Source of the DNA: Dillenia suffruticosa
Lineage: Eukaryota; Streptophyta; Magnoliopsida; Dilleniales; Dilleniaceae
Length of the DNA: 64,000 nt
NCBI GenBank assembly: GCA_033439265.1
Contig: JAVTVX010000005.1
Coordinates: forward strand, 1,064,001-1,128,000
Reading direction: 5' to 3'
The position numbers and the translations under genes are program-made. Numbering within the stretch: the stretch's first letter is position 1; each line of letters starts with the position of its first letter. Below are positions 764 through 63,864 of this stretch, in pieces. The notes under the pieces were generated by a model. It made no database searches. It was not told the DNA's origin and saw only the letters and a program-made list of their open reading frames with translations.

Positions 764-3700
764 CTCATTAAGAGGAGCATATGAACTACGCTCCTGGCTC
801 TTTAACTGGAAGAAAAGAAAGGCACCATAGGCTATCAGCATGATACAGCTACTAAACCGAGAAAGAGCCAGTTCTGACTTTCCGAAATGCACCTCCGTGT
901 GTGTGGAGTGGAGAACAGCAGGAAAGAGTAGTCCCATTACTGCCATCAGCAGCAATCCTGAGTTCACAGTGGCAGTTCCCTGCATAAAATATCTATTAGC
1001 GATAATCAAAAAGTTGGTTGATCCTTGGGTAAAAACAGAAATATAAACAAACAAAATCTAGAATCATGGACCTTGTTAAACAATTGTTCCTTATTATGGA
1101 AAACAATACCACCACATAAGAATGCGCAACCAAGAACCAGTAACATATTTGACAGAATTGATCCAAGTAATGACTGCTGAACAACTCGAATCATCCCCCT
1201 TTTCAATGCATAGATGGCTATAATAAGCTCTGTTGCATTTCCAAATGTAGCGTTTAGAAGGCCCCCAACTGAAAATCACAATAAAACAAAAGAGAATAAT
1301 CAGCTATGAAATCATGCTATAAGCACAAACTTCAATGGATGATAAAAGCCCCACTAAGTGAACTTAAGTTCCAATCATAATAAAAATAGACATGTACGAC
1401 AAGAAATTAATACATTTTATGAAAAAGTTGCTTTGGGGTAAAGTTAGGAAATATCAAACATAGCAATAACTGCTAAAATTGAACCAAGTAAACAACATAT
1501 CCCGCATGAATCTAGGAATTTTCAACAACCACTGAATATCAGATCTAACAAAGTAAAGGGAAGGAGTTCAAATGAAAACCAAGGAAAAAAAAGCACCATA
1601 ACACCCACATGGCACATGTGCACACATATAACAAAAATATTTTACCACCTCTTTTAGAGTTCTGTTAAGTTTTCCTCTTATTCTTGGTATATTTTCAACT
1701 TGTATTCTTATACACTATCACTTCTTCTAACAATAATATTAGGTTATCTTTTCGAAATGTGACCAAACCATCTTAAAACTATTTTCTCGTGTGTTATCTA
1801 TAATTGGTGCTGCTCCTAATTTTAACTTTAACATACTCATTTCAAATTCTGTATTTTCTTTTATTTCACTCATCCACCTTAATATTCTCATTTCCCCCAT
1901 GCTTATCCCCTGTGTATGTTGATTTTTAATTAGTCCAACACTTTGACCAATAAAGCATGGTTAATGTTATTGCAGTTCTAAAACTTGTCATCATGTAACA
2001 TCGAACTCTCCTCCATTCCATCCACCCCACTCTAATCCTATTTGCAACATCATCAACAATATTTCATTTTTTAAAACAATATATCCTTTAAAAAAAAAAA
2101 TTATCTCTATTAGGCACTTCTTCTCCCTTAAAATTTTTACCACGTTTTCATCCAAATCATTTTTTATACTCAAATTTCATTCCATGTACTCAATTTTTGC
2201 TCTATTACTTTTAAAATCTTTTGATTCTATAGCATCTCTACATTTTTCTAAGTTTTGATTTGCACCTTGTTTACTCTTGTCAACTGATACAAGATTATGT
2301 GCGCATAACATACGCCAAAGAATATCATCCTAAATATCACCCATGATATTACTCTTTACTGATACAAAATAAAAATAAAAATTGCGATGATCCTTGGTGG
2401 ACATGTACAATGATTAGATATTCTTTTTTTTCATTATTTTTTATTTCCTGTTGTATTATACATATTCTTAATTAGATTCATATAACTCATGGATACCCCT
2501 TTACATTCTCGAATTTGCCACATTATTTTTTTAGGTATTGTATTGTATCATTTCCTCAAATCAGTGAAATCAATATGCAAATCACTTTTCTTTTTGCTAT
2601 ACGTCTTCATTAAATATCTAATTAAGTAGATAACTTCGATAGTTGACCTACTTGGAGAAAAATTAAATTAATTGCCAGGAACATTTGTTTCTTACCTAGA
2701 TTTTATTATTCTCTCCCAACATTTAATAATATTACTCGTTAGCTTAATAACTTTATAATTTGAACGGTTTTGAATCACAAATGTTGTTATATATTGGTAC
2801 TAGGATACTTTTCCACTAATCGGGCATTTTAACAACCTTAAGTATCTTATTGCAAAGTTTAGTCAATTACACTGCCTCTCACTGACCCCCAATATTTCCA
2901 AACTTCAACAGGTTGTGGTTGAGCCCCATGACTTTGCCTATTTTCATCTTCTCAAAGTGTGTTATACTTCAAGTATGCGGATACTTCTTATATACCTATT
3001 GTTGTCGGCTACATTACTAGCTCTAGGTTCCTCTATAATTTCTACATTTGGCATTTAATAATCTATTGAAACACTTCTATAATCTTCTATTATATCCTCA
3101 TCTTTTACAATGGCATTCATCTTTGATGCATTTTACCTAAATTTAGATCTCTTATTTTTTCTCGCTTACCTAACTAGTTTATATATATCTTTTTTGCCTT
3201 CTTTCTTTTTCCTAATTTATGGTTTAGGTTCTCAAATGCTCTATTCTTCAGTTCTGTTACAACTTTTACCTCTTCTTCTTGTTATGCTCCCATCCCATCA
3301 CCAACTCTATTTTCTATAACATCTGCTTCCTTTAGATTCTCCAAACACCTCTTTTGCTTCTTCAATTATACACATTTCCATTTTGTCCCACATAACACTA
3401 GTTTTCACTTGCTTCCTTCCTATCTTTAAATACTGTAGTTTTCACCCCCCCACCCTAAATTCTACAACTTAATTTTACTCCTACCCCTTCTATTACAAGC
3501 CTTTTTCTATCTCCTAATACATAGATCTAGTACCACTAATCTATGTTGAGTCATTCAACTCCCACCTAGTATTGTTTACAATTTTTGCAAATTATTTAAT
3601 TTAATTTTATGGTAAGGAAAAAATCTATTTGATATGGGGCTTTTATTCAATAAAAGACACATGCCAATAACCATATGCATACAAGGGACTGTATGCGTAT

Positions 3701-5445
3701 TAACTTTTATGCATAGGCCTAGCATTAATCATTTGTTTTCACTAATTGGTGATGCAACTAAAAGCAATACCTTTTTAGTGTCACTAGCTTAGTTTGAGTA
3801 ACATATAAACCAAGACTTAACAGAAAGAGTAAAAAGGCCATGATTTTATTCACCTAAATTCAGTAGAGATGAACAAGCCGTGTATGCCAATATCAGATAG
3901 AACTTCTGTTCTAAAAGGAAATAAAGCTTATATAGGCTTGCATATAAAAAGAACATCTTACGATGTCTATGTAGCATAGACCCAAATACAATCATACATC
4001 AAAATTATAAACTTTAACACTACTTTAAATTAAAAAGTGTTGTATGTTGTCCCATCCATATGGCATGTCACGTCAGATACAGAAGTGCTCATTTTCAAGA
4101 ATCATCCATGCAACACAGCATGGCGCACACTAACTCCCAACCAGAAATGACTGGTTAAACTTAAAAATAGCTAACAATGCCCAAAAACTCTAAAGATCAG
4201 CAATTTAAAAGGAAAAAGGCTCTAAACCAACACTAAGATATGAAAAGAAATTGGTACCTGTGGGTCCCGTGTAGAAAGCAAGCTGCCTATATTAGAAAAA
4301 TCAAAACTAATCGGTCATTCAACACATAGACTCACAATTCTAAGAGTAGCATTTTTCAGTGAGATAGAGTCCTTACTCTGTAGCATAACCTAAACGCTCC
4401 GCCAGAGGAGTTATACCTAATAAGCATAGAAAAAAGACCCAGCCCTGCAATCCACCCCAAACAAAATGATTAAAACCGTCTTTGATGATTGATAGGCAGC
4501 AAGAATCAGACAAGTTATAAACATCAAATAGATGCAACTCACGTTATGGCCAGTTGTATAATGGATCAGGATTGCTAAAGGGCCAAAAGGCATAAGAAAG
4601 TTGAGTTTATTTGAAAAAATCACAGTGTGTATACTCTCTAAAACACTGGTCCTCACTGAGTTGTAATCACGAATTTGCAGGCCTCCTGATAAAGCCAGTT
4701 CAGCTATGTGACCAGGATGTGGCTTTTGGGCACTCATCTCAGGGCTAAAGAGACTCTCGTCATCAAACTCATGAATTGACCGATTCTCTGATTCCATCTG
4801 CCAAAAGAAAAAGAAAATGAGAGATCTCTGTCAGAGCCTGGACTCCAATAGGCAACTATACAGACCACAAGAGGCAGCCTGAATAATTAGCAAACACTAT
4901 TATATATTTGAATTTGAAGGGGGACAAAAGAAGGGGTGCATGCCTGCCAAAAGCAATAGAGGTTAAAATCATCACAAGATCAGAGGAACCATAAAACCTT
5001 AGGGTGTGAGATAAACTGTAAATTGGTTGGAACAAATGGAAAGAACATAACCATTTAAACTATGAGGTAAGGGCTATGAAGCGGTGTGTAACTAGAGATA
5101 ATATTTTGTTTCACCAATTTAAGTCCAATTTTTTTATCATACCTATTAAATGTGGAAATTATCTCCTTCCCTTGTTTTCAACAAAAGATTCTCTGGCATT
5201 CTTCCTATAACAGTGGGCATGACTAAATGGTAAGGTGTGAAATATAGCAGTGTCCATGTGATAGGAGATGATATCATAAAGACACAACAACATGAAAAAA
5301 TTAGAAAAGATTTCATACTATTCTAAAAGTTGAAAAGCTTTATTTTGTGTGTTGTGTTTAAAGGATGCGACTCAGTTGGATACAACATAAATAATTGAGC
5401 AATATAGAGTAACCATGTGAGGGCCACAAATTCCTTTATTCTTTT

Positions 5446-5519
<74 letters not shown>

Positions 5520-8638: not shown

Positions 8639-9115
8639 TCAACCACGAGTCTCTTCACCATTGGCAACAGACCCTACAGCTCTTGCCTCGTCCTGTAAAT
8701 AACCAGCCCAATGTTTCCCCTCTTCCTTCACCTTCTCTCCATCTTCACTCACTTTCTCAACCATTCTTCCAACAAACCCTCCTCCACTCCCTCTTCCAAA
8801 TGACTTGTAAACCCAACGAAAAGCGAACATCCCTGCAACGCCTAAGGCTGCAGAAACAGCTAAACCAGCCAAAGCAGCAGCAAAGAGAAGCCCAACAAAG
8901 AAAAGCAAAGGACTGAATAGCAGTAAAAGAGGAAAGCTTATGAGAAACAGTATTACAGTGGCTGAGAGTGTGAAACCCATCGTGGCCAAGAGAGGTCCTG
9001 CAATGGCTATGCTTGTGACTGATGCATACATCACTGTTTTGGGGGACATTTTGGTTGACCCTTCTCCTTCAGAGGATGAAACCAGCAATTGTTGTTGTTG
9101 TCCTTCTTCTTCCAT
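8639..9115 (-). CDS. Oleosin-family lipid-droplet protein
   Basis: Single-exon gene of 158 residues. Oleosins coat seed or tapetal oil bodies, with a long hydrophobic hairpin in the triacylglycerol core. Here a short polar, Q/E/S-rich N-terminus (1-28) is followed by about 75 hydrophobic residues (roughly 29-105), then an amphipathic Gly-, Lys- and Glu-rich tail. The hairpin turn reads FPLLLLFSPLLFFVG. The family proline knot is P-x5-S-P-x3-P; the first two prolines and the serine are present, but the third proline is Phe, so this is a divergent member. The start at 9115 (MEEEGQQQ) was chosen because the open frame upstream is basic and unlike oleosins and has no better start. An ABRE/G-box-like CACGTGTC lies 186 bases upstream. 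It could also be a more distant oleosin-like protein outside the seed isoforms. Confidence 0.85.
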   Translation of the reverse strand: MEEEGQQQQLLVSSSEGEGSTKMSPKTVMYASVTSIAIAGPLLATMGFTLSATVILFLISFPLLLLFSPLLFFVGLLFAAALAGLAVSAALGVAGMFAFRWVYKSFGRGSGGGFVGRMVEKVSEDGEKVKEEGKHWAGYLQDEARAVGSVANGEETRG

Positions 9116-9879: not shown

Positions 9880-12800
9880 TCAGAATGTTTTGGCAACTGA
9901 AGGGAGAGATTTCAGGAGGGGCAATGATGGTTTCCTGACAGTGTGACTGAGTAGGATCATGAGCGTCAACAGAGTTAGAGCTCCAGCTTGATGTGCCGTG
10001 CCCAGTGATGTGGGAACATAAGATAGTAGTGTTGATATGCCTAACGTGACCTACAATAATTATAGAAATGAATTACACAAACTTGTCTGTGAATGGAAAA
10101 TTGCATATGATTAATGAGAAGCTTGGTGACTTTACTGCAAATACCTGGAGGATTGATTTTTGACTTAGAAAGAAAAATGCTGGAACGAAAAATAATGGAA
10201 AAAGTACCTGAACAGCAGCCATTCCCAGGACGCTTCCAATTAAGGTACGGATGGCAGGATGAATGTCCAGTTTTCTTGTTGAAAACCATAAAGCTCCAAT
10301 TGAGACTAAGCTTGCAGTTGCAAGGATTCGATGATCTAGCTGTAAATAATACAACAACACAACTTTTCTTAATTACATCAACCAAATGTCTACCGATTCG
10401 TATGTTTACTCTCCTTGCAACTTTAAACCACATCATCAGTACTTAATATTGAGAAAAGTACGGATTACAGATGATGCCAGAATGCCATAACCCCCAAATA
10501 AGCTACCATTGAGGGGAAAGGACATCTCATGTTCCAAATATAAACAAAAAGCTCAAGAGGACTCATCAAAAATTTCAGAAGATAAAATTTTGAAGTCGTC
10601 TCCTGTTATTGGGAGTAGAACACGATTTAGATTTATCCTTCCTATTTACTACCTATCTATAATTCAATTTTTTGGAAAACAATGAAGTGAAACTGCATTC
10701 GTCAGAGAAATTTTACCTGCACTGTTGATGTATTCTCAAAGAAGTTGCGGATGAGTGGCTTCATTGAAAAAATATCATCTGGAATCCATGTATCCCCCAT
10801 TTTTGGGAAAGTATTGTATGCACGGCCCTGTTAATTCAAAACACAATAACTTACATCATACTTAGCTTAAAACAAAGTTCAAGTAATCCTTTGAGCAAGT
10901 GTAAGAATAATCCGAGTGAAAAAATAAAAAAAATAAAAAACCTAACATACAGCATCATTTCCAGCAACAAATGCACCTGAGATAGCTGTAATGCCAACCA
11001 GAAGGCTCACAGGTAGGGCAAGTCTCTTCACTTTTGCTGCTCCATGAACCCAAGCTATTGACTCAGCAGGTGGTTCAGGCATGACAACAGAAAGAGCCGT
11101 CCACAAAAGGCCAGAATAAATAACAAATGCTGAAGTAAGATGAGCAGCAAGACGATATGGGCTTACCCTTGGTTCAACATATTCAGAAGGTGGTTCCTAT
11201 GAAAATGAATAATGAGTTAGTTGAGCTGCATATAATAATTTCGATGAAATTCCACAGACACACATCTTACCTCTAAACCACTTTTAACCATCCACCAGCC
11301 AATGAATCCCTGGCCAGCACCAAGGGCAAATAGAGCAGAGAGTCTCAGTCCAAGCCGTAAGGTGATATAGCCCTTACGAAGAAAATATGAAAATGGTAGA
11401 GCAAACATGATACCTAAACCCCTTCCCCACATCCGATGTGCATATTCCATCCAGTAAATGAATTTAAAATCTTCAACGTTCATCCCTTTGTTCACACTGC
11501 ATAGAGGTTAAAAGCTCCATTAGAACTCCCAAGAACTCCTTTCTTCAATATAATGATCGCATATTTTCAAGACCACACAAAAAACAAAAATCCTGAGGCA
11601 ACTCGGGCACGGATCATCAGCAGAGAATAACTGTCAGAGTATAAGAGGCTTTAACATGCTAATAGCTTAAGCAATTCCCCAAGAACATAACGTGAATTCA
11701 TGATTTACATAGGAAGAACCAAAGTTGTATTCTGCAGATTAAGAATGTAAACTCACCGTTTGTACTCGGGGGATTGCTTATATTTCTCAAATTCCTGTGC
11801 CCATTCCTCATCATTCATTGGTGGAAGGTTACCAGAGAATTTCCAATCAGTCATTGAAAGACCCGATCGAGTAAGCCGTGTCATGCCACCAAGAACAACC
11901 ATGCTAAACACCCAGGCAGCGGAGCCAAAAAGCCATATTCCCACCAATCTCTGAGCTCGGGGCCCTGCAGTTACAAGGAGTTTCAACCCCTCCTTACTTT
12001 CCGTGCATACAGATGCTGTGGTTGACAAATGCCTAAAATACTGACTGTGGAAACTCTGAAAAAACCCAGCAGATAATAAAACTTTTCGGGCAATGAAAAT
12101 CATAGTTAAATATATGGCACCCACTTTGAATTCAAAACAAATGCTAAAAGAGAGGTGATGGCTATATGCAAAGTAGTTTGAGAGCATCTTAAAATTCAAT
12201 AAAACTATAGCACAGCATGGATAAATCAATCACCGAAAAGAGTTCAACACAACTAAATATAAGAAAGCAGTGAAACATATGAGATGCTTCAGTCAATCAA
12301 CATATCCTCCTCTTATGCAAACAACAAAAATTTTTCAATACTGTACAAAACATCTGCAATTGGCTCACCCAATTTAATTGCTTCCATTAATTTCAAAGGA
12401 TTTCAAACTCTCTTGCAAATTTTACCTAAAAATTATGGGGGTAGTGTTATTTTGACATCCAAAACAACAAAAATTTGACATGTTACAAATTTACAGGTTC
12501 AACAATGTTAAAAAAAAGAAAAAGAGACTACTCCGTGCTTTACAAGACCAGTTAAACTGCACTTGGTTAGATCTTGTCCTTTTGGTCCATACAACATTGC
12601 CCAAAAGCCTTTTAAAACTCAAATATAATATAATCTGGCAAATACTCATCAAGGAAAACTATTTTTCACAAAGTGGACGTATAGGGATATTGCCCAAAGT
12701 GCTGCTATGAATCATGGACATGGATACAATTAGCAATATAAAAATTTAGTACACAACCTGCCATGGATACAATTAGCAATACATTCATGCACAAGTGTCG

Positions 12801-13470
12801 GTGTATGTATGTATCAATATGAATATGTATGACTGTTATCAACGTGTAAAAACATTTTAACAACAAATTCACAGTCGACAGTAACCTTTGAAGGTTGTGA
12901 ATGCCAACACTTGAATGACCAAATTGGGGTTTAAAAAATTTGGTGGGAACCTACATTAAATTCTAACAGCTTCCATACACATTTTACATAATCAATGAAA
13001 TATTCATCCAGGTATTGTAAATGACAATACAAACAAGTTACGACTAATAGGCATGACTATAAAATCTAAAACAAATTGAGCAAAATGAAGATCCAACCAT
13101 GGAAATGCTAAAGCTAAATTATTTAATGAATGAAAATGTTCAACACAAGCCAAGCAAAGCATGGATAAATAAGATTTCTCACAATTTTCAAAACTGAAGT
13201 CCGGAACAGAATGGAAAAAGCATAGCAATTGCAATGAAGAGAAGGAAGAAGGGATGGAGATTGAGAAATACAAAACCTTGTGGAAGCCATTGAAAGAGCG
13301 CTTAGCAGTAGAACCAAGTCTGGAAATCGAAGAAGAGAAGAAAGTTCTGGAAGTAGAAAGTGAAGGATCAACCAAAACCCTAGTTGACGAGGATGACGAT
13401 GAACCACTGAGATTAGAGAAGTACTTTTGGGCATTATTCCTCTTGAGAAGCGACACCAATTGGTTCCGAT

Positions 13471-13474
<4 letters not shown>
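9880..13474 (-). CDS. COX15: Heme A synthase COX15, mitochondrial
   Basis: Inner-membrane enzyme that converts heme O to heme A for cytochrome c oxidase. Seven exons, gene order: 13277-13474, 11757-12055, 11271-11496, 10951-11196, 10717-10827, 10208-10339, 9880-10050. They join in frame to 460 residues, near the length of other plant COX15 proteins. Residues 1-66 (exon 1) are Ser/Arg-rich with few acids, as in a mitochondrial presequence. Conserved signatures follow: GGMTRLTRSGLSMTDWK, the heme-ligand histidines in EYAHRMWGR, AAHLTSAF, DHRILA and AHQAGA, and GQGFIGWWMV. The protein ends in VAKTF then TGA at 9880-9882. The start at 13474 is abutted by a 42-base GA run (minus strand). Donors are GT in all introns; intron 1 has a weak GTTTTG donor. 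Recognition is firm; exon 1 is the least conserved part. Confidence 0.93.
12719..12781. repeat. Short direct repeat in COX15 intron 1
   Basis: A 20-base word starting CATGGATACAATTAGC occurs at 12719 and again at 12762, a 43-base period. Small local duplication with no evident function. Confidence 0.6.
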
Positions 13475-29073: not shown

Positions 29074-29147
<74 letters not shown>

Positions 29148-32846: not shown

Positions 32847-33290
32847 ATGTTTGCAGCAACCACGACTCTCAATTCCGTAACTTCCACCCTCTCATTCTCA
32901 GCCGTCGGATCTGCCCGCAGGATGCCGTCTTCTTCTAATACATTTTCTAAACCGCCGATCCGAGCAGCTGCTTGCGCGGTGGAGACGCGAAAACCAGCAG
33001 CCAGTCTCTACGACGTCCTACGTGTCAACCGAAACGCTTCTCTAACCGAAATCAAAACCGCCTACCGAAGTCTAGCGAAACTTTATCATCCGGATGCGGC
33101 CTTAGAATCTGACGGCCGCGATTTCATCGAAATTCACAACGCCTACGCCACTCTATCAGATCCCGTGGCTAGAGCTGTCTATGACCTCTCTTTGGGCTCT
33201 ACTAGAAGAAGATCCAACGGCGGATATCCGTCGACGACTTCCGGATTTTATTCGACTTCTCGACGATGGGAAACTGACCAATGTTGGTAG
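32847..33290 (+). CDS. Small plastid-targeted J-domain protein (DnaJ11/DJC66-like)
   Basis: Intronless gene of 147 residues. J proteins stimulate the ATPase of Hsp70 partners; this small type acts in the chloroplast stroma. Residues 1 to about 45 are rich in Ser, Thr, Ala and Arg with almost no acids, as in a plastid transit peptide. The J domain follows (about 53-112), with SLYDVLRVNRNASLTEIKTA, the essential HPD at 81-83 in KLYHPDA, and NAYATLSDPVARAVYD. The protein ends in RRWETDQCW, the ending of Arabidopsis J11-type proteins. It has no Gly/Phe or zinc-finger region, so it is a type III J protein. The first ATG of the predicted transcript is used. Divergent neighbour of VARICOSE (tail to tail), an arrangement I recall for Arabidopsis At3g13310/At3g13300. 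Confidence 0.93.
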   Translation: MFAATTTLNSVTSTLSFSAVGSARRMPSSSNTFSKPPIRAAACAVETRKPAASLYDVLRVNRNASLTEIKTAYRSLAKLYHPDAALESDGRDFIEIHNAYATLSDPVARAVYDLSLGSTRRRSNGGYPSTTSGFYSTSRRWETDQCW

Positions 33291-40700: not shown

Positions 40701-43700
40701 TAACAACAATACAAAAGAGCAGCATTGTTAGCAGAGCTACTCATCCCAATAAATACCCACAAGAAGATGTTAGGTGTATATTAAGAAACAAGGGCCCCAT
40801 TAGCACCTTCTTGCATAGCCCTTCTTGTTGAGGTCCTGGGTTGCTACAATTACAGTATAGAAATAAATAGCATAAACTCTTCTTTAAGAAAGACGAGAAT
40901 ATGGTATTTTGTGGATGTGACAACCTTCATGCTTTAGGACAGAAGAACTACTAAGCCTAGAATATGTAATTACCCCATGCTCATAACATTTTTCTAATCC
41001 AATGCAATTTCCCCAGATCATGATAAAACATTTCTGACATATCAAAAGTGAAATATGTAAAGGCTAGGCCCAGAATAGTTATCAGTTACCTGATTAAGCA
41101 TATCTTGCATGGCCACAATCTGTGGGACAGAGGTTTCTAAGGAGGTTGAGCTGCCTCCCACTTCATTAGAAGAGTCAGTTGAATTGAAAGTGCTTGGAGA
41201 TGGGGAAGATGGGCGAGATGCTTGAGAGTTTTTCCCCTTCTGCTTTTTCCCCTTTGAAGCTGGTGTAGCTTGTGGTACTGTCGTAGGTATAGATGAATCA
41301 GGAACCTTTGGAGCTGTATCCTTTGTGGGGTCATGTAATTCTTCCTGAGAAGAGCTTGGACCTTGGCCCATTGCCTCCACTGTGGTAGCACCATCAACAT
41401 GGCGAGATTCCTCCACAATATAAGATTCCACTGATAATGCAGAGCATTCTCTGGCCATTTGAATGCCTAGATCTGAGGCTTGAGAGCAAAAGGCTTTCTC
41501 CTTACTCTCTGAAACAATAATACGAGGTTCCATTTGTGACCCAAATTTTTCATCAGTAGTTGATCCTGTTTCACCCACAACTTTAACTTCAACCTCCACA
41601 TTTCCAGAATCACTATTGACAACCACATCTTGGATGTTTGCCTCACCCTCACTCTTGCTGTCAATAAGGTGCGTGGTCTCAGAGGATGTAGCGGCCATCA
41701 ATATCTCAGAAGGTGTAATGAGATGAGTTGGTGGCTTAAATACAACCTGAGGATTAAGAACAGCTGAAGTATCCTCAAGCGATACCTTTTTTTCATCATT
41801 CCTTGAGTCATCATCCAAGGAAGGTACATCAGACATATTCGAAGTAGCAGTATGTATTTGCCTGTCAACTGAATAATCCAAGACTGGCTGGTCTCCACCT
41901 CGATCACTGCCTGGATGTCCTGGCTCATAGCTACTAGCTGGAGAACCTTTCACACCACTAAGTTTTCTGGACAGTCTTGGACTTAAAGGAAGAGGAGGTG
42001 AAGGAACACAAACAATATCATTATCATTTGTTACCGATGGCATAGGTGAAATTTTAGATTCAGTACTCGAAGCAGGATATTCTAGTACAGTAGTAACCTC
42101 AGTTGAACTAGACCTTACAGGATACCGTGGGGCAGCACTGCTATCAGAGCTACTTAAAACTGGTGGTTTGGGTGATGAACTAGCAACAGACATTTCGGAA
42201 GTCTTTCTAGCAGAAGAGTCTAAAGCAGAAAATCCTTCTGAAAGAGCTACATCTCGTGATGCATTGGAGTCAGATTTCTCTAACCCAACATTTTCCAGGG
42301 GTGGGGGCAAGCACAGAGATAAATCCAGAGCATATTGTTGAATTGCTTGTGTTTGGACACAGTAAACCTGAACAATATGTTCTCCGTGAGGTAACAGGTC
42401 ACTTGTCCCAGTAAAACTTAAAATGGGCATAGTAACTGTGAACTCTGCTATGTAGTCCATGCGGGTCGCTGCTGGGTTGGGACCATACTCCAAATGTACT
42501 GCATATATAGCATTCTTTTTTGCATTAGCAAGCAAAAGAAGGCCTGCTTGAGGCAATGCTACAACTTGATTAAAGAAAGCATCATCAATATTAGGTTCTG
42601 CTGAACTCTTTAGAACCAATGTCTGGGTACACTGCCATGATTCAGCATCACTGGGCAGCAACCAACCTTCCTCACTTGCCGATGCCCATATCTTGACCTC
42701 CCGATTTAGAGGGCCCTGCACGGAACTTTGTTACAACTACCAAACAAATATATCACATGTATGCATTATCAGAATGCTGAGGTTGTGTATAGAATGACAT
42801 CTATGAGTATCCAGATAAGATGCCACTCTGTGTTAAAAGGTACCTAGTATAAGGTCGTTTGTTCTCATTTTAAACTTCTTAAGACAACAGACTCAAAAAC
42901 CTTAGCTTGTAACCCAACAACACTTCCTCCCCCCTTCAATGTCTAAGATACAATTGTAGGAAATACAATTAGTCAACATTAATGGCTTTCAGGCACCAGC
43001 ATTACATCCATTTGATTATTATCTCAATTAAATAAAATCTATGGAGAGAGAGAGAGAACCTCTCCCATGCTACTAACAGCAACAGTAACATTACAGTAAG
43101 TCAGGTAAAACAAACGCTTTTCAGAAAGAGTTTAAACTCCAATTTATTAATAAAAAAGTTAGAAGAAAGACCATTTACCGCTGTTATAAGAATAATGTGA
43201 TCTGGCCGATTAGGAGCAGTCAAGAAGGTAGCAGAGTTAACTGGTTGGCCATCATGTGGCCTCAATACAGCAAGTGGTTGTGGCTTCCTGTCTTCCCAGA
43301 TCTTTATCTGTGAAATAAAGATTTATAGAAATGAGAGAGAGAGAGAGAGAGAGAGAGCTGTGTAATTATTAGCATAAACAGAGAGCACATAAGTGGTCAC
43401 AATCATAACACTCATATCACAAAGATTAATTCCAGAAGGTCAGATAGAATCTGAACCAACTTATTAATCATATGGATGCAATTCAAGTATATCAGGCTAT
43501 GCCATTCCAAGACAAACATGATAAAGGGTTAACTACAAAACAGTATAAATCTGCCCACAGACGCGCTCATGTTCAGAAAAGTTCTCTCAATACTTATTTA
43601 GAAATTTTAATTATACCCTACTTAATGCTTTTCGTAGTGAGGTTGCGTGTTTAGGAAGTTCAGTTTCCTAGGAACCTTAATGACAGGAACTCACAATCTT

Positions 43701-46700
43701 GCATCTTGGATCAGTTTAATGCAAAGTACTGATCTCTCTCTGCATAGTCCTACTAAGAGAATTTGGACTCTTAATAATATTTAAGTCTTTTTTAATCATC
43801 TTTTTCAGTAACAAAATGCTCATAATTTCCCTCCTGCTAATCCATTAGGAACACCAAGGCTCCTTCAAAAGTTTCTCACAGTCATTGCTTCTTATTAGAA
43901 AAAGATGATTTGCTGTAGAGCAGACATTTAAAATTTTCCAACCATGTGTCCCCCCCCCCAAAAAAAAAAAATTCAAAGTCCATTTTTCTTCTTGTATCAT
44001 TCTTCTTGCTCAGTGATATATTCTTTCCCTATCAACCGATAGCTCATATAGGCTTGAAAGCAGAGCATTTCAAGAAGGTTGTTTATGAAGATCTCATGGA
44101 ATAGATGCTAGATAAATATGAAGCAACCGAGTTTGGGATTTGCATGATGGGATAAATTTTGAGAGAATCTAAAATGTGAAAGGACTTGGATGGTAATACA
44201 AAAGTAAACATAAAAACAAAAATTTATAGGAAACTGGTTCGACATAATGGTGCATCCAATGAAGAAACCAATCAATTTTAAACATAGTTAGAAGATGTCT
44301 ATTAAAATACCAGACACATAGCTATTTTTTTTGCTAGCAATAAAACATTAGAGAACATGACAGGTCATACAAAATCTAAGAAAATGTCTAAAGAACATCC
44401 GAGCCTTAAAAGGGGAAACAAAGTTCGACAAGACATATGATTGCTTCTCCTTACCTTTAAAAATCCTGATATATCTTTTTCACCGGACATACCACAAACA
44501 ACTAAAGGGATAATATTTACCACATTTTCTACAGAAAATAATTTCCCACAGCCCCAAGATAAGTTCACTGTTGGAAAACATAATCCCCAATTCCTTAGTC
44601 TGAAAGTAATGATGGTTAACAAACTTAACTTGCTAATCCCAAAAAATGCTATTACCTAAAACCACAACCCCGTATAGATCATTAAATAGCAAAAGAGGAT
44701 ACTTATGAACAGAGGGAACAAGAAAGCACAAAAGATAATTACACCAGCAACAAGGAAGCATCCTTGGAAATTGTAAGTGATGAAAAGAAACAGAAGCAAA
44801 ACAAAACAAACAATGCCAAAAAAATTAAAGGTGTCAAAGATCCCCAGTTTTGCTTGATATCTATCATCAAAATCATGTATGTAATCCAAGTAAAGATCCT
44901 TTCAAAAAAAGCCACCGAAGCCACTGAAAAATAAAAGTAACTGCGGAGAACTCTATTTTCAAGATCAGGCTCCACGGAAAAGATCCTCTACTACCACTCC
45001 TATTTCATTCACAAAGTAAAGCAAAAAGATTACGTAAACCAAACTTAGATGATTCTCAATGAAATTCTGTCATATTTTATACATTATAAACAGATGAAAT
45101 ATTGTCATATCCTAGTCCTGTATCAGTATTCATTCTTCATAGAAGAAAGCTAAGAAAAGCTTTTGTCCAACTCCAATAAGCTTATCAACCCAAGCCCCTC
45201 CTCCAATCAGGTATGCAACTATAACATGCAAATGGATGCAGACGGAGGAAAATACTGATAATAAACAAGGAAAATACAAAAAGTGCAGCTGGGTTAACAC
45301 AGACAAACCGTGCCATCCACTGAAGCAGAAACCAAACGTGTAGTCATCCATTGGCACATTGACAAATGGGTCACTTCTCCATCATGTTTACCAACAAGCT
45401 GGACCCCATCAATCAGCTTGTCAACTGGACACTGTAAAGGCTCCTCTGCTGAATAAACCTCACCCTTCCCCACCTTTGTGGTATCGATTCTCAGGACACG
45501 TTTTCCAATTCCAACCACCAAAACTTCCTGAAATAATGTGAATACAACAGTCACTAAAAATTTTATCCACCACTCCAACATCCGCGTGTGTAATAAAGAA
45601 CTCTAAAATAACCCATTAGGGGAAGAGATCCCTCCCCCTGGAGGGGGAAAAAAAAGGAGATAATATACCTGTTTGTGCCAATGCCAACATACTCGCGGAA
45701 ACAAGGATTCTCCCTCATCCTCCACTATTTGAATGGCTATAACAATTTTTCCCATTATTTGTGGCTTATCTTCCTCATCTTGACCTTCAGCAATCTTCCA
45801 CACATAAACTCGTCCATCAATGCTCGCACTGAAAGGGACACACTTCAGTATAACTCACAGAAAGAGAAAAACTGGGGGTAGAGAGAGAGAGAGAGACAGA
45901 AAATTACAGATGAAATGCTACCTAGCCAAAAGTTGAACATCCTCAGCAAAGAATGCCATATCTGTAACCCTCTGACAGAGAAGACATACGTTAGACTAAT
46001 CAGCTGCAGAACATGAACACTAAGATTAATGCCATACAGATTCTGGTGCAAATTTGGATTAACAAGATGATATCAAAATATAAAAAGCAATTGACAACAT
46101 GTAGAAAGCTTTAAGAAGGTCCATACATGCAGACATCAAACCCAATTGCCTATGTAACTGGGAAAATAATCGCAGTAAATCAACTTTCAAAATCAGGATT
46201 TCAAAGCACTTCAAACAATCTAGATCAGATTTAGTTTGCTGTAAAGCATAACCATATCTTTAAGATACATGTTCTTTTGTATTAAGAGGGCATCAAAAGA
46301 ATTTGTGTAGAACAAGAAAAAACCTACTCAGAAATGCTATAAGGTCAAGCATGATCAAGCATGAAGAGATAATGATACCAAAATTACTAATGGTACCTGA
46401 GAGATAAACATGCACAGATAAACATGCACAAGCACGAAGAGAGAATGAGTATGATCCCCTCTTCTACTGTACAAAATGAAGCAGAAGTTCTAGGTTCCAG
46501 TTTCATCAAGTTTAGGGCTGGGAATAAACAAATTGCTCATGAGCAATCATAGGCTTGCTCTAGCTTCTTTAAATAGCAAATAAGCCAAGATCAACCCATA
46601 ATTTAGAAGATGTTTAACAAACTAGCCAAAGTTAAATACTTCAAAAACTGATTTGTTAGGATCCTAAACAAGTTCATTAGACACTTTAGATCTCCTCACA

Positions 46701-49700
46701 TTTATTGTACGAAATAATTAATTTAAGAATTTTATTCATGAATCAAGTGAAAGATATAGACAATAATGTCTGATGACAATTATTTCATTATTTCTGGATA
46801 AAAATATGAAAAAAATATACAAATAAATCAAGGTCTCACCAATTCTAGCTAAAAGCCATAGGTAGGACAAAGCCAACCAAAACTAGCTAAGTCAACTGCC
46901 AAACACCACAAACACTGTATATCCATATACTACTGTTCCATCTCCCAGTTAACAAGTAGATTAACATGGATAACTCACTCACAAAATTCACATCAGAAGG
47001 ACATCAATAGAATTCAACCAAATTCATTCCAAAGTCTCAAGCAGTAATCTACAGCATGGGGTCAGCAGCAACAAAAATGTCATAAATATAACCTTCAGGA
47101 AAATTGTTTGCGCCTTAATGCTATGTTCGATAGATGTAAAAACTTCAACTTTCTAAACAAGGGCTCACACATCACTAAGAAAGAAATGTTTGATAACCAC
47201 TAAGCACATGACTTAGAACCTATTGCTTAGTGAATAACACAGATGGCATTTAAACCTTCAGGAAACTTGTTTTTCCCATATTGCCACATTGATTAGATGT
47301 AGAAACTTCTCCAAAAGTCAAAAGCTCTCACATCACCAAAAAACAATGTTTGATAAGCACAAAGCTTGTGCATTAGATTCATTGAAAAAGAATGTTTGAC
47401 AAATACTAGCATACAGGATTGACAATACTACGTAGAAGTAAATCATCACAACTCTTCCTACCAACATGTAGGTTAAACCAGACCCATAGATTTTTCCAGT
47501 ACAACCCAAAAAAAAAGACAATCTATTTGCTGACATAATATGCTTCTTCATTTGATTAAAAAGCTATGAAGGACAAAATGAACACTGGATTTGAGCCACA
47601 ACACAACATGAACACATCTACATGTAGTGCTACATAAATTTAAAGAAAGAAAAACAACCAATACAGTCAAACTTTCAAATGGAGTAATAAATTAACCCCA
47701 AAACTAAAAAATAAATCTTCCCAAGCATATATGAAGAAAGAATGAGAAAGATTCTCCCCAGCTCAAAGCCCAATTGATATATACTTTCAATTCAACTTGG
47801 ACATTAGAGAGAGAGAGAGAGAGAGGCAGTCATTTTCCTCTCTCCTATATGGCAACAAGATTCCCATGCTCATCATGTTCTGAACCAAATATTCCATCTC
47901 TAAAGCGAAGTTCTTAGAAATAAGCTAACTTAGTTCCACAAGTAATTTATCCATTGAAAGCAAGTGGTTCATTTCTCACAATTCGTTCTCCAAAAGACAA
48001 ACAATGATCATGTATTGCCCTTTACTTGGATATTATCAAAAGGTTAGAGTTATTTCCTGAATAAACCAACTTTAGGTAGTCATTTCTGCTCAAGACAGTG
48101 CTTTCCGGGGAAAGTTAACTCTTGTCCCAACCCATTCTGTCTACACCATCAGATCTACAACAACAACAAACTAAACCTTAATCCCAATAAGTTGGGGTCG
48201 GCCATTTGAGAGACAATCTTGAAAGAGAGAGAAAAAATAAATAAATAAATAAAGATAAAATAAAATAAAATAAAATAAAATGAAAAATAGATAAATAAAT
48301 CAATAGATAAATATTTAAAAAGTATTGGTTTAATTTGTGCGGATTCTACTACACCATCCATTTCTATCCAAAACCATTTTCTCTTCTAAACCCTTAATTT
48401 TCAAATGTTTGCGGATAACTTGCATCCAAGTTTTCAGCGGTCTACCTCTACGTTTTACTAAACTTCTTATATTTAAGTTCTCAGTTCTCCTAATAGGCGC
48501 ATCTTTGGGTCTTCTTTGCACATGCCCGAACCATTTCAGACGACACTCTCGCATCTTATCCACAATTGAACTAACTCCCAACTTATTTCGGATCTCTTCA
48601 TTTTTTATTCTATCTCTTCTAGTTTTTCCACGCATCCACCTAAGCATCCTCATTTCTGCTACAGGCATCTTTTGTTTTTGTTGTTGTTTAACAGCCCAAC
48701 ACTCAGTACCATATAATAGTGTAGGTCTAACCGCGCTTCTATAAAACTTTCCCTATAAGTGCAATGGCATCGTGTGATCGCAAAGAATTCCGGAGGCCCA
48801 TCTCCATTTCATCCAACCCGCTTGAATTCTATGATTCACATCTCCATTGATGTTACCATCATTTTGAATGATAGATCCTAAGTATCTAAATCGTTCACTT
48901 TTGGATACCTCTTGCCCATCTAACCTAATCGTTTCTTCATCATTCCGGGGGCTGTCACTACCTGTCATAGATCTTAACATCAAATAAATATCAAATGAAC
49001 TTCCAGTACAAGATCCTAAACACTTTGTAGCAACTACATACAAGGCAAGAGACACGGCAACATGAGAAGGTCATTGAAGTTCTACACTATCGCTCATTGT
49101 AAGATAAAAGTTGTAAAAATTGTAGTAATGTGTCATGTATATAGAATGTACCCAACATTAACATATTCATTCCTAGAAGTGCTCACACAACATAGATTGG
49201 AAGTCTTATATGGTTAGTTCAAAACATTTGTTTCTATAAAGTTCCTCTTCTTAATTGAAAATTATTATTTGGAGATAAAGGATTTGTCACATGTGCCTTG
49301 TTTTTTCCACCTATAGAGCAGTCAGAAGATCTTTCATATTCTCGTTGTTGTTGTTGTAGAGATTTCATTTGATTATGAAACTTGGGGTCTCATTTCTTGT
49401 GTTCTGGGGCACTCTAGCATCAAATCTTACACCAGTGGGATTCTCTAACCGTTGAAATAAGCTAATTCTTAAATGTACCAGATTTTCCTGTGAGTAATTA
49501 ACAATAGACCATATTATCTTTGTCCAATTTGAAAACACTTCAGAAAGTACTAAACCATCCATATATTTTGATTACGACAACTAATTATCTTATTAAGGGC
49601 CAACTTGAAGAATGTAAGTACTCCCGTATTTGATATGAGACTGGCCGAATTTGTTGTCTTTGGAGAAACACCAGTTCAAACTACCAAACTTGGGAAAAGT

Positions 49701-50913
49701 AAAGAGCGTCATTATTCAATATAAAGGTATTTATAATCATGGACGCACACCTTCCTTTTATAAACATGGCCTTAAATAGCACCGAGTAGGTTGGCATGAA
49801 CCATATGTGCATGAGATTGAAACCAAGGCCATGATACAATAGATATCATGCTTCAAGAGAGATAATCAACCTCATCCATCAGACCATACTCATGAACTGT
49901 AAAGTAAATACAATACAATAAACCAGCAAAAAGGAGTGAAAACTATCGGCCGCCCAGCCAAAAGAACCCAGTATTCTATCCGTGAAAAGAGAGCAAGAAC
50001 ATAAAGCAATGTGCGAGAATTAAAATTGACTGCAGATAGCTAAAATCAAATTCAAACCTCAAAAATTGTTTCCTACTCATAAATGCAAGCCAACCTGAGT
50101 GTGACCACGAAGCAAAGATCGCAATGCAGTGTTAATATTAAGCACACGAATCGCTCCCAACTTCAATCCATAACAGATATAGGTCTTATTAACAGCAATT
50201 TGGCGACCCAACACCAATCCAGGATCAGAAATGTACTTAGTAATCGGAGTAACCTCGAGCTGAGGCTGAACTTCACCCTGCAACCTAACATTAACATCAT
50301 AAACCCCATGATCACCAACCAAATGCCGCCCCTTCGGTAACTTACTACTCGGCATCCGAGCAGGACCTCCCGGCGGCAGCGCCACCGTGTTCAAGGCAGG
50401 CGAGGCCAAGGGCACTGAGGGCAAAATGTGAACATTGGCAGGGCTAGGAAATTCAAGACCCCCAGATGAAGCTGAGGGCAAATTTGAAGTGGGTTGCTGA
50501 GAAAACTCAAGATTGGATTGGGGATTGCTGAGTAGAGCCATTAATCTGGCGCCAGGATTATTAGGGTTTGAAGAAGAAGACGAAGAAGAAGAAGGGGGAG
50601 GAATTGGGCATTGAAGAGGGGGTGTAGGATAAGAGAGGGACCTCTGGGGATGCAAGTTAGGGAGTTGAATATCAGGAGCAGGAACGGGAGGGTAGGGCAT
50701 GTAGTGATGATGATGATGAAAAGGGGTTGTGTAGGGACCGGTGGGCGGAGGGTATGAAGAGGAGGGTGGAGGTAAGGTTTGAGGGAATGGAGATGAAGGA
50801 GGGAATGGGGATGAAGGGTTGAGGTTGTTAGGGTTTTGCGGATTTGCGGATTTGAAGAACTTTTGCACATCAAACGGTCCCGGTATCTGGTTTGGATTGT
50901 TGGCTGAAGCCAT
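34788..50913 (-). CDS. VCS: VARICOSE, mRNA decapping complex scaffold (EDC4 homologue)
   Basis: Scaffold that joins DCP1/DCP2 in P-bodies for mRNA decapping. Twelve exons, gene order: 50095-50913, 45922-45971, 45669-45828, 45309-45527, 43179-43307, 41090-42715, 39569-39925, 39334-39453, 38011-38181, 36107-36271, 35861-35986, 34788-35096. They keep phase and total 1416 residues, slightly longer than I recall for Arabidopsis VCS. Exon 1 encodes a Pro/Ser-rich and His-rich leader (starting [20 protein letters not shown]) and the first WD40 segment. Exons 2-6 continue the WD40 domain (for example [28 protein letters not shown]), to about residue 590. The long exon 6 then encodes a Ser/Thr/Pro-rich acidic linker. 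Exons 7-12 give the helical C-terminal domain ([63 protein letters not shown]). Intron 1 (4.1 kb) holds a truncated LINE. VCS and its paralogue VCR cannot be separated here. Confidence 0.94.
36876..36949. repeat. 37-base tandem duplication in a VARICOSE intron
   Basis: Two adjacent units carrying GCACAAAAACCAAAAACTAA, differing by a few bases. A recent local duplication without evident function. Confidence 0.7.
40217..40333. repeat. A-rich minisatellite, (AAAAACT)n then (AAAAAC)n
   Basis: A heptamer repeat at about 40217-40266 passes into a hexamer repeat at about 40274-40333, inside the VARICOSE intron between exons 6 and 7. The switch from 7- to 6-base units suggests stepwise slippage. Confidence 0.85.
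48150..48990 (-). mobile_element. 5'-truncated RTE-type LINE with TTG tail in VARICOSE intron 1
   Basis: On the minus strand: [20 protein letters not shown] and [19 protein letters not shown] (about 48960-48760), then [52 protein letters not shown] and [13 protein letters not shown]. This is the C-terminal part of a plant RTE reverse transcriptase. It ends in GGCCGACCCCAACTTATTGG and a (TTG)n tail at about 48153-48165, the usual RTE 3' terminus. The 5' end is lost near 48990. At least one frameshift, near 48755, separates the two reading segments. It is better kept than the LINE in the CAX intron, hence younger. Confidence 0.88.
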
Positions 50914-54377: not shown

Positions 54378-54538
<161 letters not shown>

Positions 54539-57288: not shown

Positions 57289-57356
57289 ATAATATAGATA
57301 TAGATGATGGCATAGGACATTGTTGAAGAATAAGAATTGTCAACCACTGAACCATA

Positions 57357-58105
57357 CATTTATTGCGACCCTTTTCCTAAAAATTTAAATTTTTGACGAG
57401 TATAATGATAATTACATGTGTTTGATGATAGTAACAGGAAAGGGACACGCTAGATTGGGATTTTGAATTTGAATTCTCCAACGTGTATCAAATATATGAT
57501 ATTCCAAAAGATTGAGAATGCTAACTGACGCCACTAAAGGGTATAGAGTTTGGCTCATTTATTGCGACCCTTTTCCTGAAATTTAAATTTTTGACAAGTT
57601 TAATGATAATTACATCCGTTTGATGTTAGTGACAAGAAAGAGACATGCGAGATTGGGATTTTGAATTTGAATTCTCGGATGTGTATCAAATGTATGACAT
57701 TCCAAAAAATTGGGAGCCACCAAAGAGCGTAGAGTTTGACTCATTTATTGCGACCCTTTTCATAAAATTTAAACTTCTGACAAGTTTAATGATAATTACA
57801 TCCAATTGATATTAGTAACAGTAAAGGGACACGCTAAATTGGGATTCTGAATTTGAAATCTCCAACATGCATCAAATGTATGACATTCCAAAAAATCGGG
57901 AATACCAAAGAGTATAGGGTTTGGCTCATTTATTGCGACCATTTTCCTAAAATTTAAACTTTTGACAAGTTTAATAATAATTATATCCGTTTTATGTTAA
58001 TAACAGGAAAGGGACACGCTAGAATGGGATTTTGAATCTGAATTCTCCAATGTGTATCAAATATATGACATTCCAAAAGATTGGGAATGCTAACTGATAA
58101 GTCAA
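57357..58105. repeat. Four-copy tandem repeat, unit about 185-199 bp
   Basis: Units start with CATTTATTGCGACC at 57357, 57556, 57742 and 57927 (periods 199, 186, 185). Each carries TTTGACAAGTTTAATGATAA, GGGACACGCTAGATTGGG, TTGAATTTGAATTCTCC and TGACATTCCAAAA in order. Copies differ by about 5-15 percent by eye. The last ends near 58105. No ORF spans the units. Confidence 0.9.
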
Positions 58106-58596: not shown

Positions 58597-61500
58597 TTAT
58601 ATAATTCCATTTGGTCTCTCCCCACTCTTTGCAGATCTCTTTTGCATGTCAGCATCATAATGTGCAAGCGCCGCCTCTAAAGCCTGCATCGATATGACCT
58701 CTTTTCATGAGCTGCTTTTTATATAATAAGGTCTTTCTTCAAAATTTAATGGTCAAATCCTTGAGATAGAATGGTGAAATTTTCACATGAACATGATTAT
58801 ATAAAGTTGCCATCTTTGGGAAGGCAAAGCTACTTAATTTTCCCAATTGTGGACCCATTAGAGCAAAAGTTATTAACTAAGAAGTACCACTCCATTTAAC
58901 TATATCTAGATAGTATCTACACGTCGTTGCACGTCACACCAACACTTCTAAAAATGGCCGCATTCATGTGTTGTGGAGAGTTGATAGACACAACATGCTA
59001 ACTACACTTTGCAAAATTTATAATAGAATAAAATTTTTTCTATCTCCACGTCCGTGTTGGTCATGTCCCATGTTCTAGGTCTAAACAGAGGAGTAATGAG
59101 TGTAACCTAGGCTTTCTAAGCTATGGACAGAACTTTGTCAGCAAAGCCCATGGCCAGGCCATGGGTTCCCCCAAAAAATAGACAAAAGAAAAAAAAATAA
59201 AAAGAAAAGAAACATAAAAAGGTTAGATTATTATTGTATGATTTACATTTACAAAAGAAATAGGGGAGTGGGATTTTAACCTGTTGCATGGGCTGAACAA
59301 GGAGAGAAACTTGATGTCGAAAATCTGATTGTATAGATTCCTTCATCTCCTTCAGATGTAATAAAACATGGTTAACTAACTATAGTTATTTCAGAGAAAG
59401 AACACGTAACCAGTTGACAGTCCAATAGATGGGAAAGCATGGTTATCAAAGCTTTGAGCAGTTAACCAAATACATATTAATTGTAAATATAACCAAAAAA
59501 AGAAATGTACCCAGTACAATAAACATGTATCATAATTGCAATTTATAGATTCTCAGAAATCAACTATAGAATGCAGATAGATCTGGGATTAACATGGCAT
59601 TTCCAAAGTCATTGCTGAAATCTCTTTCCCATTGGAATGTTGTTTCCTACCATGGCAGAAAAGTTGGCCATGCAATCAGCAGATGGTATCAAAATCTCAG
59701 AGCAGGAAATCACCAAGAAGAAAGGCAGGCAAAAATTACCGAAAGCCCCTAAAACCATCCAAACCAGGACTAACTATGCTGCTCCCTTATTTCTCGTCTT
59801 CAGCGCCTTGAAAAACTGCTGAACTTTTTGATTTTAGCCAAAATATATCCGTGGATTGGGTTTTCAATGCAAAAGGCTATCCAAATGAGTGTTCTTTTTT
59901 TTTCCTTTTCTTCTAGTGCTTTGTTTCTTTGTGGACCAATTCAGCCAAACTTGCAATTTCCACCCACTAAGGAGTAATTATCAAATTCAATGACTAAGAT
60001 TATAATATTGAAAAAACACTAAGGCATGCCTCTGAATAATTATCTTGCAAACTAACTTATTTTGTAATATATATAATACCTACCATTGCATGGCTCGTAA
60101 TTAAAGTACTGCTTCTGCATTGAACCTATATGATGCAACCTAGTTCCAACATAAGATCACTTCAATTGAGTTTTGGATATATTTAGCAGCAATTTGCGAG
60201 TATATTCGCGAAACAAACAAACAACGAAGCCTGATCATTTCTAACAATAAGAGAAAACGTAACACAATCTTCATGATTCAGTTATCAATACCAATAATGT
60301 GTGGTTTTAATAAAATGACCCAACATGCTACCTACAAAAACACTCTGGAGTGAAAAGAAAACCCAAGTCCAGTGAAGTGTCAAAGCTGAGCAAGTGGCAG
60401 CGAAGAACTTACAACCCCAGTACAAGGGAGAAAAAATAGAATAGCAATCTTCACTGAGTACCTGTAACTTTGGATAGATCTGGACCATGGCATCCTTCAA
60501 TCTGCTTACCTGCAAAGTCAAGCACTATATAAGAGAAAGGTACACTAACAACAAGGTCCAAAGCATCTCTCAAATTTCAAAGCCATTGTCGGCATTTATG
60601 AACAATCTAAATGGTAAGAGATTATCCCTACCTCTTGTGGAACAATACTGCATCTCAGCATCGGACCTCTTCAAATTTTTAAAACTTTTGAGACCAAATC
60701 TTAAGAAAGCTAATTTATTCTTACACCAAAGTATGCAACAATAAAGAGCACTGTGCAATATTTGATTTAATATTTAAATGGCGATTTCGAAATGTTTGAA
60801 TGTAGTACAAAACAAGTCAAGGCTGAAGCAATGCATGTAAGATTCAAAAAAGGAAAAAACCACCTAAGCCTTAATCTCAAATTTTGGAATTGGTTGTTTA
60901 AGAGACAAAAATGGGAGAGAGAAAATAAAATAAAATAAAAGTTTGAAAGCAAAAATAGAAAAGATAAAAAATAAAAAAAAAATAAAAAAAAAATGAAAAT
61001 AATGAAAAAAGAGAAATAACTTAGCATACCTTTCATTGTTGATAAGTAGTAACAATTAATGGCATCAGGCATACCTTAGCATAAAGATATGAAGTTGTAA
61101 TGGGATACGATGACCAGAAATGTTTCAGTAACTCTTGAATGGATGTCCAGTGCTGAAAGAGGGAAATTGCTCTCTCGTAATAGAGAATCATTTCAAAAGT
61201 AAAGTAAGAAATAACAAATGAATAGGGACAGTTGCTATGCCTCTCTCTTCACAATCAGATCTCAGGTAAGAAGACTTGATAAGATGCATCTGTCAATTGA
61301 ACTAGAAGAAGGTATCAACTCACATGTAGGAGCTCATCTTTGGTTTGATTTGGCAAGTTATCCAGAAAACTTTCATGAGGATTCTTGCCAAGATGATACT
61401 TGGTGCTTGAGATATTCTGGGTCAATCCATTGAAAACCTATAGCATGAGATCAAGCATTTACACTATCGTAAGTGGATAGAGCATATGTTTCTTATTATC

Positions 61501-63864
61501 TTTCATCTCTTGGGGTCATATTACAATAAAACAACAGGTGATATGTATAATCTTTCGTTACCTTAAGAGCAACTTCAGGTTTCAATAAGGGATCAGTCAA
61601 TCCCACTGATTTGATTTCAGCAATGGATTCTCTCAGGGACTGATATGCCTCCCGGGAACTCAGCCTGTGTTTCATGGGGTTTGTGTCAGATAGTGTCTCT
61701 CCCAAAGTTTTAAGTGCATTTGCTTGCTGAGAATCAAAGTAATCCCGAGGATCCTGGTACAAGACAGATAATACTCATTCATTTATGACATAAATAAGTT
61801 GCTGAAACAAATGGCCACAAAGTTGCACCTTAATACAAAGTGGGGCAATAGGAGGGTCACGAGGTGCATCAAGATCCTCAATTTCAGTCATTCGAGAAAT
61901 CCTATCCAGTCGCTCTTGGTTTCTGGTTCCATCAGATGCTTCATTAGATACTTCAGCTGCGCACAGACCAAAAATCATTACTGCGTGGTATCTCACATTT
62001 GTTAGTGAGCTAACCAGCAAAAGAGAGAGAGCATGGAAATCAAGATGACTGGAAGAAGATATGGAAGTGCTGCTAAACACGAACCCTTTTTTGACCTGAG
62101 TGCCACGGCTACTGCTCTTGTGTCTCGTGGTTCAGCATCTGCATACAAAGCTTGTGAGAGAGATGGATGCCATATTCCTCATCATTTCAAGAGACACAGT
62201 CAACAAGTGCAACAAAATTAGTGGAGCTCATAGATGACCTTTTAGAATACTAGCAAATTATGCATCTAGGAAATGTATGATCATGAAATTAGTATATTTG
62301 TTTGCAATGTTCGTGGCTGTAACTCCTATCATCTGTAATTTTTTCTTTTTGAATCAGCTGTAGTTTTTCTTTTTTTTTTTTTTTTTTCTCAACAAGATTG
62401 AAAAATTAGAAAAGATAAAAAAATGCAGCCAAGGAAGGTTTACCTAGAGGTCTTCCTTCGAGAACAACTGCTGCATGCCGGTTAAGATCATGTGCAAGAG
62501 ATCTTTTGTATTGCTCATAATGTGAGTCAATTTCAGTGATTACCTTGCCTCCATCACGAAGGATCCCATGGTCCTATAAGTTAAACAAAGACCATCATAA
62601 TAGGAGACATGTTACCCATGAAGTCAAAAGCATTAACTTTATAAATGAGGTAATGACAAAAAGCTAGAGATGGCCTAGAAAGAATTTATTCCAATTTCAT
62701 TATGCATATGGAGCTTTTACACTACACCTTTGCAATAAAAAAATACAAGGAATAACTCAAATGTCGCTATATTGAAACATACAACTACAAAAAAAAAAAA
62801 AAAAAAATGTCCACCTTCTAAAAGGCTGTTTGAAACCTAGAGGAGAGAATGACATAGAGAAAATGCAATCAGCCTTGCCTTACTACCTCATAGCCACCTT
62901 ACCAGTCACCACTTAAGAAGATTAAAAATATTTAGCGCATTTTCATTGGGATTGCAACCCTGGGAGTCTAGGACCATGAAAGGACAAACCAGCAAGGATT
63001 TTGTGCCCATTCAAATGTAAGTTTTACATGATTAAGTACATGTTTATTGGAAGAGATGGGCACTCTCAATGCTCTGAAATCATAATAGTTGGTTTCAATC
63101 CCTAAGTTACTTTCCAGTAAACCAATTGATTAGGAACACCTGTAAATGGGCCACTGCACATATAATGCCATCTAAAAACTCATTTTGGCCGAATGCCTGT
63201 TTGCTGAATTCCCACTGTCTAATTGGACAGTCATGGCCAATTTGTAGCATACAGAAAAATACATACAAGTTTGAATCAGCAGAACAACATAAGTGCTAAA
63301 TAAAGGTTTTATCCAACATACTGGAAGATGCAAGTAATCATCTCCTTGATCAGCTTCCATGTCTAAAGTTGGGTCCACTCGGCGGATCTGTGACCAGCAA
63401 GAAAGGGAGAATTCAGCAAACAAATGATATTATTCCAACATCAACTATTTTAACATGGAGAGAAGATCATAACAATTTCCTAAAGCTTGCACCTTCTGCC
63501 GAGCTTCATTTGCCAAGATGTCATCTTGCTTCAAGAATACAGCAAGATCTTCATCTTCGGCAGCTTCTGCTGCTGCTACAATTGAGTTCTTTGTGCGATG
63601 AAGGTATTCTGCTCTGCAATATTTGTTCCAGAAGTCCAGTTCTGTCATCTGCAAACAGAGAAATAAGTAGAAACTCCAGTGACAGGAAGGTTATCACAAT
63701 AAAATTGTTCTGATCTCATGCACAAGATTATATTTCGTCCTACTTTTGATAAGATAATAAATGATGTTTAAGGGCCCAAGGGATGCATGTTTGAGCATTC
63801 TTCATACCTTGCTGGGAACAAACTTTAAGAAAGCCTCATGGACAGCGGGTTTCTCAGCAAAAAT
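58597..63864 (-). CDS. TFB1: TFIIH core subunit 1 (p62/TFB1), BSD-domain protein (partial, 5' part beyond right edge)
   Basis: Subunit of the general transcription and nucleotide-excision-repair factor TFIIH in the nucleus. In-window exons, gene order: 63808-63864, 63493-63648, 63322-63387, 62444-62573, 61829-61956, 61562-61753, 61324-61437, 61075-61152, 60462-60509, 59281-59349, 58597-58683. All junctions keep phase and give about 374 residues. They include the second BSD domain (IFAEKPAVHEAFLKFVPSK then TELDFWNKYCRAEYLHR), RRVDPTLDMEADQGDD, DLDAPRDPPIAPLCIK, NGLTQNISSTKYHLGKNP, the helical C-terminus (KHFWSSYPITTSYLYAK, HQVSLLVQPMQQ), ending in HYDADMQKRSAKSGERPNGII. The PH domain and first BSD domain lie right of base 64000. 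One acceptor (CTGAAG at 59350) is weak but required by phase. Confidence 0.92.

Follow-up and report, generated by a model that had tools for sequence, protein, structure and literature searches.

Gene order in a 64-kb plant DNA stretch suggests a conserved block whose genes are divided among separate Arabidopsis segments

We analyzed the gene order of a 64,000-nucleotide stretch of contig JAVTVX010000005.1 (hereafter the window), the source plant of which appears to be a eudicot. The window carries, in this order, genes for a cation/H+ exchanger (CAX), an oleosin-like protein, COX15, SIP1, a small J protein, VARICOSE (VCS), and TFB1, six of the seven being on the minus strand and the J protein gene on the plus strand. 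These are housekeeping genes with no relation to one another. Very probably, the window represents a gene block conserved in eudicots and spared the losses that came after the genome doublings of the Arabidopsis lineage. The initial annotation had described the gene order as the union of two homoeologous Arabidopsis segments that had lost complementary genes. Within Arabidopsis this description was supported; however, we propose that at least two and probably three segments are involved.

To describe the Arabidopsis side, the counterparts of the window genes were matched by family and name, and their locus numbers were compared. SIP1 is presumably a synonym of alkaline alpha-galactosidase 1 (At1g55740). 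In the literature, VCS is At3g13300 and has a single relative, VCR (At3g13290) (PMC7910438), the J protein DJC66 is At3g13310 (PMC3720927), CAX2, CAX5, and CAX6 are At3g13320, At1g55730, and At1g55720, with genome coordinates given (PMC4488139), alkaline alpha-galactosidase 1 is At1g55740 (PMC9912918), and At1g55750 appears, unnamed, among the TFIIH core components (PMC9916837). In addition, a wax gourd gene with the annotation general transcription factor IIH subunit 1 has At1g55750 listed as its orthologue in Arabidopsis (PMC10157166). The six locus numbers given in the initial annotation were all right, each being backed by a paper, and the trios At1g55730/40/50 and At3g13300/10/20 are each consecutive, as had been claimed, with adjacency taken from the locus numbers and not from a map. 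Each of the two Arabidopsis runs, CAX-SIP1-TFB1 and CAX-J-VCS, keeps the relative gene order of the window, and the genes in them would be orthologous to those of the window.

A clustering of large-family members by chance, with no orthology behind it, could draw on the fact that J proteins (116 in Arabidopsis), WD40 proteins, and oleosins form multi-gene families. Under random gene placement the Arabidopsis adjacencies would arise with a probability of 2e-17 to 4e-16 for narrow families and 3e-12 for whole families. When the oleosin-COX15 pair was left out, because its Arabidopsis adjacency is a probable one, the corresponding figures were 2e-14 to 3e-13 and 2e-9. Moreover, VCS has but the one relative, VCR, and COX15 and TFB1 are one- or two-copy genes in Arabidopsis. 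The gene number and the sizes of the WD40, oleosin, TFB1, and raffinose-synthase families used in these estimates were background values; the number of J proteins and the J clade of three came from papers, as did the three alkaline alpha-galactosidases of Arabidopsis (PMC9912918). On these random-placement probabilities chance clustering was rejected, and we find it hardly credible. A functional gene cluster was rejected as well, as the seven families have unrelated roles.

The claim that the two Arabidopsis segments are homoeologous was borne out by a serine acetyltransferase-type (SERAT) pair flanking the block, At1g55920/At3g13110, one pair only, which is labelled as a product of the alpha whole-genome duplication (alpha-WGD) (PMC4202327). 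Because this pair is published as such, we regard the At1g55 and At3g13 segments as homoeologous. Both segments also carry paralogous genes for Cpn60beta (At1g55490/At3g13470; PMC5780408) and eEF2 (At1g56070/At3g12915; PMC9273596). The order of the four pairs CAX5/CAX2, SERAT, Cpn60beta, and eEF2 on one chromosome is the exact reverse of that on the other, which fits an inverted collinear block; the pairs were hand-picked and are not an unbiased sample, and the chance of a monotone order in either direction is 0.083.

For the oleosin-like gene and COX15, the initial annotation had named no partner at either of its two Arabidopsis sites. This holds at the two alpha sites, but it probably overlooks a third segment with At5g56090 and At5g56100. 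At5g56100 probably encodes a glycine-rich protein/oleosin, the locus occurring together with 'oleosin' in the literature, including that on oil-body proteins. COX15 is At5g56090 (PMC11676349), and the two genes thus have adjacent locus numbers. On the same stretch of chromosome 5 lie a Cpn60beta gene (At5g56500; PMC5780408), 41 locus numbers from COX15, and SERAT1;1 (At5g56760; PMC4330696), 67 locus numbers from COX15. Because copies of Cpn60beta and SERAT, the families that flank the alpha pair, are found there too, At5g56 is probably a third homoeologous segment, older than the other two, to which the window's oleosin-COX15 pair would belong. We consider it fairly likely that the ancestral block was split over three Arabidopsis segments of two ages, namely the alpha pair At1g55/At3g13 and the older At5g56, where COX15 and the oleosin-like gene survived together while being lost from both alpha copies.

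The history behind this pattern would start from a single ancestral segment with CAX, the oleosin-like gene, COX15, SIP1, the J protein gene, VARICOSE, and TFB1. Several copies of this segment would have arisen on the way to Arabidopsis, first through beta, an older doubling, or through the gamma triplication, and later through alpha, and the genes dropped would have differed from copy to copy. Of the two alpha copies, At1g55730-55750 would have retained CAX5, SIP1, and TFB1, and At3g13300-13320 VCS, the J protein gene, and CAX2; the older chromosome 5 copy (At5g56090-56100) would have retained COX15 and the oleosin-like gene. The seven genes have no common function, and position alone would have been inherited. 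The window would then show the ancestral state and preserve the pre-duplication order, a suggestion drawn from this one window.

Several points weigh against this reading. COX15 lies outside the Cpn60beta-SERAT interval by 41 locus numbers, and therefore a rearrangement has to be assumed, as under strict collinearity with At1g55 the gene would be expected within the interval. A fourth Arabidopsis Cpn60beta copy is located elsewhere (At1g26230; PMC5780408), so that the chromosome 5 copy, when taken alone, says little. SERAT1;1 falls into a different group from SERAT2;1/2;2, and the four grape SERATs too are assigned to three groups (PMC4330696), for which reason the chromosome 5 segment may predate beta. 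In PMC4488139, AtNCX6/AtNCX10 is the only pair named as duplicated in Arabidopsis, and CAX2/CAX5 are not so counted. Finally, the wax gourd orthologue of TFB1 (Bhi08G000342) shares its mapped interval with seven other genes, not one of which carries the annotation of a window gene; for two of these eight genes no Arabidopsis orthologue is listed (PMC10157166). As the wax gourd TFB1 has other neighbours, the gene block does not seem to be universal; the wax gourd locus may reflect a rearrangement or another copy.

The position of COX15 outside the Cpn60beta-SERAT interval would also fit a history in which only the two alpha segments are homoeologous to the window. COX15 and the oleosin-like gene would then have moved as a linked pair, either to chromosome 5 or to the lineage of the window, and it would be a coincidence that Cpn60beta and SERAT have copies nearby. 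That the oleosin identity of At5g56100 is a probable one also leaves room for such a move. On the other hand, the probability that COX15 came to lie within 70 loci of the interval by chance is about 0.006, with the limit of 70 set post hoc, and two flanking families have copies on that stretch of chromosome 5. We therefore regard the movement of a linked pair as possible but unlikely.

The differing neighbourhood of TFB1 in wax gourd, together with the fact that one sequence besides Arabidopsis entered the comparison, would also agree with a derived order of the window, in which a rearrangement in the window lineage brought together genes from separate ancestral segments and the match to Arabidopsis arose from this fusion. 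However, the two Arabidopsis runs have CAX in common and fit into each other in a single consistent order, with SIP1 between CAX and the J protein gene and VCS between the J protein gene and TFB1, unlike what a simple fusion would give. A derived order thus seems improbable to us, and we retain a conserved block divided by gene loss in the Arabidopsis lineage as the best explanation.

The features of the window are collected in Table 1. At the level of sequence, all seven named genes are confirmed as real, and their order as given in the initial annotation agrees with profile or structure-database matches. The gene models were produced with simple purpose-written splice predictors and are approximate. 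In a first set of Pfam searches, six of ten window pieces scored above the curated cut-off (a CAX exon, the oleosin, two COX15 exons, SIP1, and the J protein), and a second CAX exon, two VCS pieces, and one TFB1 piece scored below it. In a second set, four of eight pieces were above the cut-off (spliced CAX, TFB1, the VCS propeller, and the VCS C-terminus); the four below it were two remnants of retroelements, a plus-strand open reading frame (ORF) at 56561-56746, and a longer piece that shares sequence with this ORF but is read in a different frame.

Table 1. Genes of the window with their positions and the matches that identify them (aa, amino acids).
Feature	Position	Strand	Model and matches
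CAX2/CAX5-type cation/H+ exchanger	764..4797	-	splice model; PF01699 (Na_Ca_ex) 1.4e-23 on spliced part; GNATE motif
CAX exons recognised (n=5)	4543-4797, 4377-4444, 4258-4286, 1072-1268, 764-979	-	
Oleosin-like gene	8639..9115	-	single-exon ORF, 158 aa; PF01277 2.1e-16
COX15 (haem A synthase)	9880..13474	-	7 exons, 460 aa model; PF02628 7.2e-24 and 2.3e-25 on two exons
SIP1/alkaline alpha-galactosidase, raffinose-synthase family	15905 to ~20169	-	PF05691 7.5e-61
Small J protein, intact	32847..33290	+	147 aa; PF00226 (DnaJ) 4.4e-19; HPD at residue 81
VARICOSE/EDC4 (Ge-1) homologue	34788..50913	-	Ge1_WD40 9.3e-20 (propeller); EDC4_C 4.5e-12 (C-terminus)
TFB1 (TFIIH p62 subunit), cut by window end	58597..63864	-	partial splice model; BSD 4.6e-8

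The outermost genes are both cut by the ends of the window, the 3' part of CAX lying beyond its start and the 5' part of TFB1 beyond its end; the limits given in the initial annotation, 764 and 63864, coincide with the outer exon edges, a splice donor and a splice acceptor, respectively. When the CAX exons were compared with Pfam separately, one matched PF01699 at 2e-11, above the curated cut-off, and a second at an E-value of 0.0013, below it. For the oleosin-like gene, the splice predictor preferred a two-exon model with a short extra 3' exon, which was set aside for the plain ORF. The encoded protein has a proline knot without the third proline (PLLLLFSPLLFF), as judged against the consensus. 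The SIP1 model is incomplete: exons were predicted over 15905-19561, and the first exon was added after visual inspection of the ORF at 19948-20178. In the structure-database search, a 322-residue part of this model matched galactosyltransferase 6 structures, at 7.1e-128 for 7exf; we take these structures to be from Arabidopsis. By its size and position, the J protein is putatively assigned to the DJC23/24/66 clade.

The splice model of VCS covers the 5' part of the gene, the exons between 36 and 41 kb and the 3' half being outside it. The 60 best-scoring structure sequences for the VCS piece, out of 141, included designed and natural WD-repeat propellers and no EDC4; therefore, the identity of VCS is founded on the two EDC4-specific Pfam models. 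The TFB1 splice model is partial, with two of eight joins left unsettled, and the best structure match of the TFB1 piece, a weak one (E-value 0.0066), was TFIIH subunit 1.

No further gene family was detected at 19.7-32.8 kb and 51-59 kb in six-frame Pfam scans, in which none of 12 frames scored above the curated cut-off; such scans can miss short exons, as the first exon of SIP1 at about 20 kb went undetected. Matches to DUF3915, Atrophin-1, and Trypan_PARP in these gaps were below their respective cut-offs and were dismissed. The window gave no Rfam match at the gathering score and no tRNA. Between VCS and TFB1, the plus-strand ORF at 56561-56746 is complete and encodes 62 aa, which are rich in cysteine at the N-terminus and include a single strongly hydrophobic segment; it matched no Pfam family and may be a small membrane-protein gene. 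In the same intergenic region, a unit of about 185 bases is present in four tandem copies at 57335-58086, three of them 72-89% identical to the reference copy. Perfect dinucleotide runs were found at 54384-54535 (GA, 76 copies) and 29074-29144 (CT, 35.5 copies).

Two minus-strand remnants, one in a VCS intron (48333-49070) and one in a CAX intron (1742-2063), resemble the C-terminal part of the reverse transcriptase of plant long interspersed nuclear elements (LINEs). Neither of them matched Pfam. The two are related to each other, as their peptides matched at 2e-9 in a BLASTP comparison with two subject sequences.

The pattern seen in the window is ordinary fractionation, which has long been described, and it involves no new mechanism or principle. 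It has been known for a long time that complementary genes are lost after whole-genome duplication, and nothing in this understanding is altered by the window. The window does serve as a neat example in which a single intact plant segment points to those regions of Arabidopsis that are homoeologous to one another. It also suggests where COX15 and the oleosin-like gene, which are unexplained by the alpha pair alone, may belong. Our literature search found no text joining several of the window gene names and none naming four of the six flanking Arabidopsis loci; texts naming two of the six do exist. The published apple CAX positions were left out of the comparison, as no positions of the other genes in apple came to light.

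As to known parallels, a tomato-Arabidopsis 'network of synteny' was reportedly described by Ku et al. in 2000, for a different region from that of the window. A published precedent for the same pattern is the comparison of Prunus with a pseudo-ancestral Arabidopsis genome (PMC1479338), in the text of which none of six locus prefixes tried for the Arabidopsis region of the window was present. A further precedent is the coffee CcEIN4 region, which corresponds to one region each in tomato, grape, and Medicago and to two in Arabidopsis, with selective gene loss (PMC2656508). That study differs from ours in that grape was compared and in that both Arabidopsis segments are on chromosome 3.

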